A DNA stretch of 46,887 bases from NCBI GenBank assembly GCA_947623805.1, contig CANQHZ010000019.1, positions 1 through 46,887 of the forward strand. Direction: 5' to 3'. Of this stretch, positions 4,592 through 34,163 are shown piece by piece. The position numbers were made by a program, and so were the translations under genes. The first letter of the stretch is position 1. Each line of letters starts with the position of its first letter. The stretch is from an uncultured Lachnospiraceae bacterium (GTDB taxonomy: Bacteria > Bacillota > Clostridia > Lachnospirales > Lachnospiraceae). The notes beneath the pieces were generated by a model. That model saw only the letters and a list, made by a program, of their open reading frames with translations. It had not been told where the DNA came from and ran no database searches.

Positions 4592-6667
4592 TCAATACAC
4601 CAAAAGCAAAGTAACAATCCCCGCTACAGCCCCAAGCATTGCAGGCTGGACTATTGTTATCGCAGAAGTGATAATACGATTTCGCTTGTAAAACCTATTT
4701 TTCTTAACATCAATCAGCACCTGCGCCATTCCCTGCATGGTACACAAAAACACTCCCGCAATTACGGCATAGTACACTGGAAATGTGACATTTCCCATAC
4801 TCTCATCTGTCTTAGCCTCCTCTGTCCCTATGCGTTTTATGTCAAGTCTGAAAGTCGTTTTCCCTGTCATATGAGGTCTTAGCGCTTCATAAACGCTGCT
4901 TTCGGTCAATCCTTCAAATCCCTCGCAACCTGCCATATACTCCGCAAACCACGAATACGCCTCCTTTTCAAAAAGCGTGCCGTAAAGCACTTCATCAACT
5001 ATACGCGCCGTCACTGCATCGCCGTCCTCATAAACAGTGATTAAATTCCTCGAATTACTGTCTGCGAAAGCATCCTCCAAATTCTGCGGCAACACATAAC
5101 CGCATTCCACATCACCTGAAAGCACAAGCCGCTTTACCTCGCCCTCATTCTCACACACGACAAAACTAACAAGTCCGTCATACTCTGAAAGCTCACTTTC
5201 AAACACTCCCGTCTCATCATACACTGCCGTATATATGCGCGTTTGTGACGCCCTTTCCGCCGATGCCACAGCCGCCGAAACTGCCACAGTAATCCCAAGG
5301 CACACCCAGAGGCTCTTTTGATGAATAATCCTTTTAAATAATATAAAAAACAACTGCGTTTTAAATGACACATATGTCACTTTATGCATAGGAATTAAAT
5401 CATCCTCGTTTCCCAAGTAAGGCATTGTCGCCCATGCCAGGAGAAGACACACAACGCACCATATTAAAAGTCCTGTAATAGCCTCCGAAAACCTGCCCAT
5501 GTTCCCTGTAAAAAGCATTGTAAAGCCTGACCTCAAATAAGATGCGGGCAAATATTTCCCTATTCCAATAACTATGTCAGGCAAAAGCGGCGTTGGAATA
5601 AAGCAGCCTGCCATATACCCCTGAAAAACCGCCAATATGCCGAAAACGACGAGCGCCCCCTGCGCTTCCTCAACAAGCTGATACACAAGCTGCGCATAAA
5701 TCGCCGCAAATAAAAGGCACACCATCGTCACTGCCAAAAGCTCCACAGCATTTCTTCCCGAAAACGCATACGACAGCAAATCCCTGACCTTTGGAAACAA
5801 CGGCAGCAAAAACGGCACTGCCAATATAATCAAAATAAGCGGCAGTGCAGCCATAGCGCGGCACAAAAGCTGCATCAAATATGTCACGCCCGCACGCCGC
5901 TTTATCATCCGCTGCTGCAGCCTCGGGCGCTTGCTGAAACCCCCAATAAACATACCCGCCAAAAGCGCAAGCAAAGCAAGAAACGCCCCCGCATAGTACA
6001 CGGCGTAACTGTTGTTTTCCGTGGCAGATAAAAGCTTTCTTTTAAAAAGTTTCTCCCTACCCCCCACCAGCTTCAGATTAAATCGGTTTATGTCATCATA
6101 CATTGACTGCAGACGCTCACCCTGCCCGAATTTGACACTTAAATCCGTCGCCGCATAAATCTGCGCCTGCGCCGTCTGCAGCATGCCTATCCCGGAATTG
6201 GCAAGCTCCTCAAAAATCCTGCTGCCCGTGACGTTTTCCCCCGCGCCATTTGCCGCGCTCTTGGGAAGATAGACAGTAGCAGGCGTATTGCTGCCCGAAA
6301 GTATCTCCTCCACCACATTTTCAGGCAGAACTATAAGCGCCGAAAGCTCGCCTTCTTCAAGCCTGCTTTTCCCGTCAGCCACAGTCATTTTTTCAAGACT
6401 GCAGAGGCTCTTGACGGACTCCATACTCTCTACATATGAAATGGCAAGCCGTGTGAGCATATCATCATTTGCAGCATAGCCTATCCTGACCAGTGGCTCG
6501 CCACTGCTTTCCTCAACGTTATTAAACGCACAAAAAGCAATCATACCGATTATCGCAAAAAAAACAATAATTGGTACAACTGCCCTTTTCAAAACAACGG
6601 GCAGCATTGACGCCGCCCGCTTGTATTCTGTTTTCAGCCAGATTAAATTACTCATAACACTGTTCAT
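4592..6667 (-). CDS. ABC-2 type transporter, tandem permease with truncated second half
   Basis: 691 residues. The first half (about 1-435) is a complete ABC2-type unit: one membrane helix near 27-47, a large extracytoplasmic domain, then five or so helices from about 222 to 420. A second unit starts near residue 450 with the same plan (helix, extracytoplasmic domain) but stops after only two more helices at LLLVY. About three helices expected from the family plan are absent, and the following 100 nt do not read as their continuation in any frame I could follow. The partner ATPase is encoded at 8517-9188. The substrate is unknown. It may still be functional if the first half pairs with another permease copy. 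Confidence 0.8.
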   Translation of the reverse strand: MNSVMSNLIWLKTEYKRAASMLPVVLKRAVVPIIVFFAIIGMIAFCAFNNVEESSGEPLVRIGYAANDDMLTRLAISYVESMESVKSLCSLEKMTVADGKSRLEEGELSALIVLPENVVEEILSGSNTPATVYLPKSAANGAGENVTGSRIFEELANSGIGMLQTAQAQIYAATDLSVKFGQGERLQSMYDDINRFNLKLVGGREKLFKRKLLSATENNSYAVYYAGAFLALLALLAGMFIGGFSKRPRLQQRMIKRRAGVTYLMQLLCRAMAALPLILIILAVPFLLPLFPKVRDLLSYAFSGRNAVELLAVTMVCLLFAAIYAQLVYQLVEEAQGALVVFGILAVFQGYMAGCFIPTPLLPDIVIGIGKYLPASYLRSGFTMLFTGNMGRFSEAITGLLIWCVVCLLLAWATMPYLGNEDDLIPMHKVTYVSFKTQLFFILFKRIIHQKSLWVCLGITVAVSAAVASAERASQTRIYTAVYDETGVFESELSEYDGLVSFVVCENEGEVKRLVLSGDVECGYVLPQNLEDAFADSNSRNLITVYEDGDAVTARIVDEVLYGTLFEKEAYSWFAEYMAGCEGFEGLTESSVYEALRPHMTGKTTFRLDIKRIGTEEAKTDESMGNVTFPVYYAVIAGVFLCTMQGMAQVLIDVKKNRFYKRNRIITSAITIVQPAMLGAVAGIVTLLLVY

Positions 6668-31888: not shown

Positions 31889-31925
31889 AAAAGACGAAGG
31901 TTCAGCAATATTCCCTTCGTCTTTT
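31889..31925. terminator. Bidirectional intrinsic terminator after the sulfatase-fold gene
   Basis: AAAAGACGAAGG (31889-31900) and CCTTCGTCTTTT (31914-31925) form a perfect 12-bp stem with a 13-nt loop, with T-runs on both sides. It lies 93 nt after the stop codon of the frame-restored sulfatase gene (32018), which agrees with that gene ending there and not at 32169. Confidence 0.85.
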
Positions 31926-32017: not shown

Positions 32018-32189
32018 TCAGCGCCAAAAATCATAATATTCGTCCGTTGCCGTCCAATTATCAAAATCAAGGGCGCTGCCTTTTATTACATACTTTCTAA
32101 CTGCAACCTGCACAGCATCATAAACAACATGGAAATAATGAAATCTCTCACGCTCATTATTATTTGCTTCATCTGAAAGCAGATTTATA
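32018..32189 (-). other. Out-of-frame C-terminal tail of the sulfatase-fold gene
   Basis: After the G tract the other frame reads INLLSDEANNNERE, then VRKYVIKGSALDFDNW and ends YYDFWR. The YVIKGSALDFDNW segment is the usual end of membrane sulfatase-fold proteins of this kind. One G fewer (or two more) in the tract joins this 56-residue tail to the body, giving about 714 residues. In the sequence as given it is not translated. Confidence 0.75.
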
Positions 32190-34163
32190 CCCCCCCCCCC
32201 TATCGAAAGATATGCCCACTTCGCCTGCCAAAGTTGGCAGCAAATCGCTCTGTGACGCATACGCGTTTGAATACGCCAGCGGTTCTGATGACTTTCCCTT
32301 AGGTTTCACAAACATTATTACATTTACTTTTTCAGGCAGCACATCTTCACTTTCAAAATTATCCCCATGGTCTGCTGTAATAATAATAGTCGAATTTTCA
32401 TATAATCCAAGCTTCTTTAATTCATCTATATAATTATAGACAATCTGCATACTTCCCATATATTGTTCTATATTCAAATCCTTTGACGCTTCGACACGAT
32501 TTCCATACCGATCCAGAGAATACGGCGGATGCGCACCAAACATATGAATAAAGCGAAACGCCTTTTTATCAGAATTTTTCACAAGCCCCATACAATCTAA
32601 ATCCGCCTTTATTTTCGCATCATCCATCTTATACTGTTCTTCTTCCCATACTACATTTGATAAAACCAGATTATTGATAGTGTCTTCTGTGTACATAAAA
32701 CAGTCCTTCAAAACATACGGCATAATCTTATAGCAGCTCATTGTATGAATACTCCTAATACACCCTGCCAGCGAAATATCCTTCTCTATAATATTTCCAT
32801 GCACAATATAATTGTCAGCCTGCTGTTTTACTGTTCCTCCAATATAAGAAGCATCATCCTCATAAAAATATGCGCAAAAATCTTGTTGAGCTAAATCCTT
32901 CCAAAATGAACAGCTGTCAAATGCATAATCGCAATAATTCTCCCCCTCAGGCGTTTGAAAAAAAGCTGTATCAGTAAGCATATAAGTCACAGCGGGATAT
33001 GTCCTTGAAAACTGCGCTACCGTATCAGGATAATATGTAAAACCCGTTAACGGCTCTAAAAAGTCTGGACTATTTTCCAAAACATCTTCCATAAATTTTT
33101 CATCATATTTATCAAGCACAAAAACTATTACATTCTCATCTTGCGCTACTTCATACAATCCCTTTGTTGAAAAATACTCTGCTTCTTTTTTTGTTTCAAA
33201 ATGTCCTGCCTTTGTTATTACAATAGAAAAAAATCCCGATGCCTGCATAATAACTATCGCAATGCAGCAAAACCTGACAATTCCTTTCCAATTGCTTTTA
33301 CTAAAATGCTTTATCATACATACAGCGGCAAATATCAGACACCATACAAGCAGATTTCCTGCTTTAATCTCTAACGACCACTCTCGTTCAACTCCATCCA
33401 TCATAGAAAGCTTTCGGTTCAAAAAAAGCTCCTGAACATATGCCGCTATCGTAACCGCAAATATCACAAGAGCAGCATTTTCCTTAACTTCTTTAGGAAG
33501 ATTATTTAAAAGTGAAAATGCCGCAAAATATACTAAGACAAAAAATAATGCCAAATATACAATAATATCCTTGACTGTAAATGAAAACTCACTTGTATTT
33601 GATAAAAAGGTTTCAAGAAACGGATATATAAATATTGTAAATGAAAATGCAAAAGCCACAACAGCTATAAGACTATCCATATGCCTTCCCCCGCTGCGTC
33701 CCTTCATTTTTTTAATTAAGCGGGAGCCTACCATATCCGCCGCCAATACTATCAATCCAATTACAGCCATTGCCTCAGGAAGTATGCTGTGATAAATCGC
33801 GCTGTTTATATTTTTATATTCAACTAACTTATATACAAATATACCAATTACAGTTATTGAAATATATGCCAGTTTAGCATACTTATCTTCATCATCCCTT
33901 CGACAGAATAGCGCCAGACTGCCCACTCCCATTACTATATCGCTTACAAGAAGCCTTATATCCTGAGAATACGCATAAAACTCACCTGTTTTCAGCAATA
34001 TCAACCTGCCTATGCACATAAAACAATATATTTTAAATGTACAGACAATAAACGAAACTAATTTGTCCTTTACTTTCCTATTATGGTCTGAGATTAGCAG
34101 AGCCGCTGTTGTGAATATAAATAAAAGCAAAATCATTTCAAGCAGCGCCTTTTTATCTGACAT
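32169..34163 (-). CDS. Membrane sulfatase/alkaline-phosphatase-fold transferase, cut short by poly-G tract
   Basis: As read, 664 residues. About eight membrane helices cover residues 8-325. The outer catalytic domain has the metal Asp351 in VFVLDKYD, a probable nucleophile Thr388 in FSRTYPAV, FIHMFGAHPPY, and ADHGDNF, the pattern of LTA synthase and phosphoethanolamine transferase relatives. It likely moves a phospho-group onto a surface polymer or lipid. The frame ends RGGGYKSAFR just after an 11-G tract, while the conserved tail lies in the next frame. GGAGG precedes ATG 34163. It follows the MalY/PatB gene by 34 nt. Confidence 0.85.
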   Translation of the reverse strand: MSDKKALLEMILLLFIFTTAALLISDHNRKVKDKLVSFIVCTFKIYCFMCIGRLILLKTGEFYAYSQDIRLLVSDIVMGVGSLALFCRRDDEDKYAKLAYISITVIGIFVYKLVEYKNINSAIYHSILPEAMAVIGLIVLAADMVGSRLIKKMKGRSGGRHMDSLIAVVAFAFSFTIFIYPFLETFLSNTSEFSFTVKDIIVYLALFFVLVYFAAFSLLNNLPKEVKENAALVIFAVTIAAYVQELFLNRKLSMMDGVEREWSLEIKAGNLLVWCLIFAAVCMIKHFSKSNWKGIVRFCCIAIVIMQASGFFSIVITKAGHFETKKEAEYFSTKGLYEVAQDENVIVFVLDKYDEKFMEDVLENSPDFLEPLTGFTYYPDTVAQFSRTYPAVTYMLTDTAFFQTPEGENYCDYAFDSCSFWKDLAQQDFCAYFYEDDASYIGGTVKQQADNYIVHGNIIEKDISLAGCIRSIHTMSCYKIMPYVLKDCFMYTEDTINNLVLSNVVWEEEQYKMDDAKIKADLDCMGLVKNSDKKAFRFIHMFGAHPPYSLDRYGNRVEASKDLNIEQYMGSMQIVYNYIDELKKLGLYENSTIIITADHGDNFESEDVLPEKVNVIMFVKPKGKSSEPLAYSNAYASQSDLLPTLAGEVGISFDRGGGYKSAFR
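32190..32200 (-). repeat. Homopolymeric tract of 11 G (minus strand) inside the sulfatase-fold gene
   Basis: Eleven consecutive C on the plus strand. With 11 the frame ends after 6 further codons; with 10 or 13 the C-terminal tail is joined. Tracts of this length slip often during replication and are typical phase-variation switches. Confidence 0.85.

Follow-up and report, generated by a model that had tools for sequence, protein, structure and literature searches.

A poly-G tract in a Lachnospiraceae membrane-enzyme gene as a likely slipped-strand phase-variation locus

Large systems of random on/off switches are known mainly from mucosal pathogens. For Campylobacter jejuni, 29 poly-G/poly-C tracts of seven or more are described in strain NCTC11168, together with a 28-locus assay of contingency loci (PMC4965091). 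For the sortase-pilus genes of Bifidobacterium breve UCC2003, a mixture of G11 and G12 is described as splitting or joining two open reading frames (PMC9187656); a review (PMC11868660) is cited alongside both papers. Among the open-licence matches listed, no report of poly-G phase variation in Lachnospiraceae was found by title or abstract. We describe here a G11 tract within a membrane-enzyme gene of the window, the whole stretch of 46,887 bases under analysis, taken from a draft genome (G000) of 3,955,491 bases in 229 contigs. The host is probably a gut Lachnospiraceae, as judged from its same-genus kin; among the matches listed (at least 78 loci), the nearest named relatives are Lachnospiraceae MAGs, several with animal-gut sample names. 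The tract is likely to be a slipped-strand, phase-variable contingency locus and one member of a Lachnospiraceae phasome.

The split gene and its product

The gene is located on the minus strand, and as assembled it forms an open reading frame of 664 amino acids (32169–34163), which is truncated, representing the OFF state, and ends with RGGGYKSAFR. The proposed slippage switch, a G11 tract (32190–32200; C11 on the plus strand), is the sole G/C run of seven or more in the entire window. The gene portion 5' of the tract (32202–34163) is open for 654 codons, and after the tract only six residues are added before the stop. The conserved C-terminal tail of 56 residues (32018–32189, minus strand) is displaced by one base; this tail, INLLSDEANNNERERFHYFHVVYDAVQVAVRKYVIKGSALDFDNWTATDEYYDFWR, is read in the neighbouring frame and terminates at 32018. 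Directly 3' of the tract lies TAT (32187–32189), a flank common to many tracts of this genome. The first-pass annotation had pointed out the tract, the 664-residue frame and the family tail one frame over, and all three were borne out. The terminator that it placed right after the stop of the long frame was instead found 92 bp beyond the stop of the tail, as a terminator-like 12-bp inverted repeat with a 13-nt loop (31889–31925, minus strand).

The only Pfam match above cut-off was the Sulfatase domain PF00884 of the alkaline-phosphatase superfamily (E 3.8e-11) at residues 514–650 (32214–32624, minus strand); an NCBIfam scan of the protein gave no match, leaving the family without an NCBIfam name. 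When a nine-ortholog profile was compared with solved structures, the top match was LtaS (PDB 2w5q; E 3.7e-7, profile positions 551–673). The hydropathy scan indicated about 10 membrane helices within residues 6–316 (33216–34148, minus strand), from eleven hydrophobic peaks of which two overlap. Residues D351, H540, H545, D598 and H599, which we take to be metal ligands from the role of such residues in the alkaline-phosphatase superfamily, are invariant in all nine aligned proteins, and R387, T388 and P390 are likewise invariant among the aligned proteins. On the basis of the PF00884 domain, the LtaS profile match, the hydropathy peaks and the invariant D and H residues, we read the window protein as a putative LtaS-like membrane enzyme of the alkaline-phosphatase superfamily. 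Both LtaS and the window protein combine a membrane part with a sulfatase-fold domain; the window protein differs in that the confident match is limited to the C-terminal part of the domain, and in having about 10 hydrophobic segments, whereas LtaS has five. The nucleophile motif of formylglycine sulfatases, C/S-x-P-x-R, is lacking in eight of the nine proteins, and the lone match, in the ortholog L074, lies near the C-terminus at a non-conserved place. The sulfatase-fold domain is presumably extracytoplasmic, and the enzyme would most likely work on a surface polymer, either transferring phospho-groups or acting as a hydrolase. Its earlier description as surface-modifying follows from fold and membrane topology and is best taken as a prediction. 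The 10 neighbouring genes scanned include those for PTS EIIC, an aminotransferase, a phospholipase D family protein and trigger factor, and no polysaccharide cluster was observed among these 10.

For comparison, the window protein was aligned with eight orthologs (L103 and G017 represent one record, as do L106 and G019). Alignment of the tail with family members, which the first-pass annotation had proposed as a check, showed the tail in frame in all eight. The portion 5' of the tract is 59% identical to the nearest ortholog (L103/L074), with identities at the three codon positions of 0.69/0.80/0.50 against L103; for the tail, identity to L103 reaches 70% across 54 codons. Since the codon-position identities of the tail (0.76/0.83/0.50) follow the same pattern, the tail continues to evolve under coding constraint. 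A tract at the equivalent place was detected in none of the eight aligned orthologs, L074 having only TGGGG there. The ortholog site reads GATA-AAGAGTGGGG-AATT and the window site GATA-G11-TATA, a change from 10 to 11 nt with no longer insertion. Because the tract-less ortholog has 10 nt at this site and the tail evolves as coding sequence, the gene looks intact except for the tract, and OFF in the assembly. Taken with the presence of the tail in all eight orthologs and the constraint at codon level, the length of the tract sets the frame of a conserved gene. The G019 ortholog carries a G10 tract of its own elsewhere in the gene, encoding IKPGGGY and in frame. As this tract and the G11 tract of the window occupy different places, the gene family has gained a tract twice.

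In the proposed mechanism, slipped-strand mispairing during replication would lead to gain or loss of Gs, and the G count would decide whether translation continues through the conserved tail (ON) or ends after six further residues (OFF). Loss of the conserved last 56 residues in the OFF state would probably inactivate the enzyme. The first-pass annotation described the tract as switching the C-terminus; the effect is probably ON/OFF, because the other frame offers no alternative functional tail, only six residues before a stop. For the window locus, we infer that tract length changes within the population and does so reversibly, and that activity is lost in the OFF state; the nature of the substrate is likewise our inference.

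Poly-G tracts in the genome and genus

In the whole draft, 51 runs of 9–11 G were identified after 77 overlapping G9 hits were collapsed, and a recount also gave 51. Exact G7 and exact G8 runs numbered 27 and 8, respectively, and geometric extrapolation from these two classes predicts only about 3.4 runs of nine or more. Tract length therefore exceeds the composition-based prediction (51 versus about 3.4), as is characteristic of contingency loci. Runs of A fall off without a second peak (49 of length 8, three of length 9 and none longer in 291 kb of this genome). With the H-G9 pattern, 50 tracts were counted in this genome versus 0 to 29 in each of the 35 other genomes of the same genus. A cluster of four G7 runs on one strand, within about 800 bases, was also noted (G000:C155:5243-6053).

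Three of the 51 tracts are located at contig ends, versus about 0.06 expected by a rough estimate. These contigs start within a poly-G/C tract (C30:1-9, C63:1-10 and C120:1-10 of G000), as though assembly had stopped at tracts of variable length; such ends might represent either length-variable sites or read failure.

Loss of mismatch repair was considered as a cause of the high tract number, with mutS as the gene examined. The mutS gene was above cut-off in 34 of the 38 genus genomes, including G000, where it is intact, and this cause is therefore unsupported; because MutS is intact, the genome does not belong to a mutator lineage as judged by mutS. A separate MutS-family match with internal TGA and TAA was observed in three species (G000:C31:30490-31305, G019:C7:55169-55984 and G028:C15:36180-36998), and may reflect a decayed paralog common to all three, or else a domain boundary.

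To describe the tract-bearing genes, the stretches around all 51 tracts were translated into 50 pieces (at least 60 residues on one side if out of frame, at least 80 if in frame). Of these, 48 were subjected to the Pfam scan, the window piece being scanned separately and one near-duplicate omitted. Pfam matches at E<=0.01, some of them under Pfam's own cut-off, were obtained for 35 of the 48 pieces scanned, and the other 13 gave no match. Counted per tract and with the window included, 33 have a Pfam match, and on our own tally the names at 23 of these point to surface or polysaccharide functions. This group includes nine tracts with methyltransferases, some of the FkbM or TylF type, which presumably act on surface sugars, together with WcbI, an MBOAT acyltransferase, three sulfatase-fold enzymes, a group 1 glycosyltransferase, a core-2/I branching enzyme, two hexapeptide transferases, a PIG-L deacetylase, a formyltransferase, an epimerase, an alpha-L-rhamnosidase and a LysM protein. 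Non-surface names were assigned at the other 10 matched tracts, among these AMP-binding, citrate-lyase-ligase-like, radical SAM and DUF proteins. Three Pfam domains, WcbI, MBOAT and Ig_Rha78A_N, are split by their tracts, the profile resuming past the tract in another frame. With the window tract being one of 51, the population would thus form a mosaic of surface states. A gene for a DUF1796 protein (putative papain-like peptidase; L042:9525-10523) holds one tract, and its open frame begins directly after another.

DNA flanking the tracts

Many tracts have the flanks (A)TAC-N0-2-G9-11-TAT in common, whichever of the three reading phases they lie in, and tracts in promoters have them too. When the tracts of this genome were picked regardless of flank, the 3' side of the internal tracts showed TA in 37 of 48 and TAT in 28 of 48, and TAC was found within two bases before the run in 23 of 48; after G runs of 3–5 in the same DNA, TAT comes next in 4–7%. 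Across the 38 genomes of the genus, G9TAT was counted 154 times and the mirrored TATG9 six times. TAT follows 119 of the 266 tracts of the 35 sister genomes, with an uneven distribution (15 of 23 in G035, none of eight in G006). By phase 0, 1 and 2, TAT was present at 10/13, 4/7 and 6/13 of the tracts of this genome, and at 40/47, 29/36 and 32/44 when sister stretches, which were selected through TAT-flanked tracts, were added.

Several explanations of the flank were examined and rejected. A protein-level GGGY motif is ruled out, because TAT follows the run in all three phases. A hairpin or inverted repeat of ATAC and GTAT is not supported either, as covariation between the two arms did not exceed permutation among 86 tracts. 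Nor do the net length differences between 27 tracts and their tract-less homologs support a mobile motif that was inserted whole; they range from −9 to +6 in 20 cases and lie outside this range (−23 to +25) in seven, one being +13; many of these homologs are only 30–60% identical and some of the alignments are poor. The flank does not look like a general property of poly-G, since viral contigs lack a strong side bias, TAT being found on either side of G9 in at least 120 versus 95 cases. The TAT bias weakens beyond the genus, where a hand tally gives about 193 to 36 as against 154 to 6 within it, and six of the 29 tracts read there have TTGAC upstream, as in promoter spacers, so that part of this outside bias represents the −10 box. 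In other families of the order (L291–L320), TAT-flanked G9–11 tracts are thin, at least one being present in 102 of the 392 genomes sampled.

Inside promoter spacers, TAC-G10-TA was observed, for example as TTGACA-N9-G10-TATAAT. Such tracts precede LysM-type proteins (G000 and G028) and a conserved protein of about 400 residues (G000, G019 and G028), and appear to constitute a second, transcriptional class of switch. Promoter-like spacers with tracts of 9–11, of the type TTGACA-N9/10-Gn-TATAAT or similar, were also noted at L070, L065 and L054 of this genome and at L217, L218, L221, L249, L184 and L199 of sister genomes.

As the flank occurs in all three phases and in promoter spacers, and its arms show no covariation, it is a feature of the DNA itself; our leading guess for its cause is context-dependent slippage or tract birth. 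More speculatively, (A)TAC-N0-2-G9-11-TAT could be a dedicated poly-G switch element that recurs across unrelated genes, in each of the three phases as well as in promoter spacers, and that seems to take the place of ancestral codons without being inserted. We regard this as possible but doubtful. If true, tract birth or slippage would depend on the surrounding sequence, which a dedicated protein might recognize, and the bacteria would have a programmed route to phase-variable genes, beyond chance expansion followed by selection.

Competing readings and known systems

A homopolymer error of sequencing or assembly, with the gene really open and no switching, is an unlikely account. The genome is a draft, database lengths of G-tracts have been wrong before (PMC9187656), and the ortholog interval measures 10 nt. 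The consensus length of the window tract may be wrong. An error in length cannot, however, create a run of 9–11 G where L074 has only TGGGG, and it leaves unexplained the 51 tracts with shared flanks, many in surface-type genes, and the trough at G7–G8. The wider pattern is thus hard to explain as sequencing error.

Programmed ribosomal frameshifting or transcriptional slippage, by which both products would be made from one DNA sequence, is improbable. Homopolymers can slip at the RNA level, which makes such recoding possible in principle. The frame states, scored by a mechanical rule that requires coding on both sides of the tract, argue against it: in-frame joins were found for 15 of 26 tracts in this genome and 51 of 84 in sister genomes, about 60% versus one third by chance (P 9e-9), and a majority in frame is unlike a fixed recoding signal. 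The out-of-frame tracts need both shifts (four of +1 and seven of +2 in this genome, 23 and 10 in sister genomes), and the promoter-spacer tracts cannot act through recoding. Such frame states are more what functional genes that flicker would show than what decay or fixed recoding would.

Still a little less probable is a fixed frameshift, in which the gene would be a pseudogene of recent origin, permanently OFF. Tract length does break the frame in the one assembly available. Against this reading, the tail evolves as coding, the frame is uninterrupted for the 654 codons leading up to the tract, and slippage of G8–G12 tracts has been measured in C. jejuni (PMC4965091). Furthermore, a different tract from that of the window shows length polymorphism between relatives. 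Among 179 tracts of 8–14 G in this genome and the sister stretches, 11 pairs have similar flanks on both sides, and nine of these are equal in length and two different. In one of the latter, an AMP-binding gene, the tract is G9 in this genome (L053), with the frame open for 1111 nt past the tract, and G10 in another species (G026, L235), with the frame closed after 21 nt; the flanks are identical at 445 of 450 and 1101 of 1110 bases, and the whole genes measure 1560 and 1561 bp. The N-terminal tract of the C13 sulfatase gene is conserved across three species, whose DNA is 86–92% identical there.

A poly-G artefact of two-colour sequencing chemistry, or contamination, is extremely improbable: one contig (G052, C55) does carry five artefact-like runs at its tip, and C or G runs of 33 and 20 with one base between (L252 of G035, 5918–5971) are probably a sequencing artefact, but the window tract is internal with both sides collinear with the ortholog, and TAT follows G9 in the genus 154 times and precedes it six times, whereas viral contigs show at least 120 versus 95.

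The slippage switch suggested in the first-pass annotation is thus favoured by genomic context, namely the 51 tracts, the G7–G8 trough, the surface-type genes, the split domains, the one-G difference between species and the G019 tract, and it is from this context that switching at the window locus would follow. The G9 (open) and G10 (closed) forms of one orthologous tract in 99% identical DNA, together with the 51-tract setting, make the switch reading well supported. The equal length of nine of the 11 similar-flank pairs, the 229-contig draft and the non-polysaccharide neighbourhood weigh against it, as do the 13 pieces lacking a Pfam match and the 10 matched tracts with non-surface names. 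As far as sequence can indicate, the window most likely contains a real tract in an otherwise functional-looking gene, a contingency locus in OFF phase and one of many.

With 51 tracts in this genome and 0 to 29 in each of 35 same-genus genomes, phase variation becomes testable outside pathogens. In gut bacteria, tract switching could be a basis for surface differences between strains, for phage resistance and for immune recognition. A surface gene that looks split in a Lachnospiraceae MAG may be a switch and not a pseudogene.

With C. jejuni the present system shares G8–G12 tracts that are mostly intragenic, with few intergenic ones, and that lie mainly in enzymes modifying surface structures, and it shares the principle that tract length fixes the frame (PMC4965091). 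The Lachnospiraceae genome differs in its 51 tracts of nine or more. Many of its tracts have the (A)TAC...TAT flank in common, whereas in C. jejuni the flanking sequence is reported to be without effect on slippage (PMC4965091). B. breve UCC2003 is likewise a gut commensal with a G-tract in a surface gene, but there two pilus loci are concerned, whereas the Lachnospiraceae tracts form a genome-wide set located mostly in other types of gene (PMC9187656).
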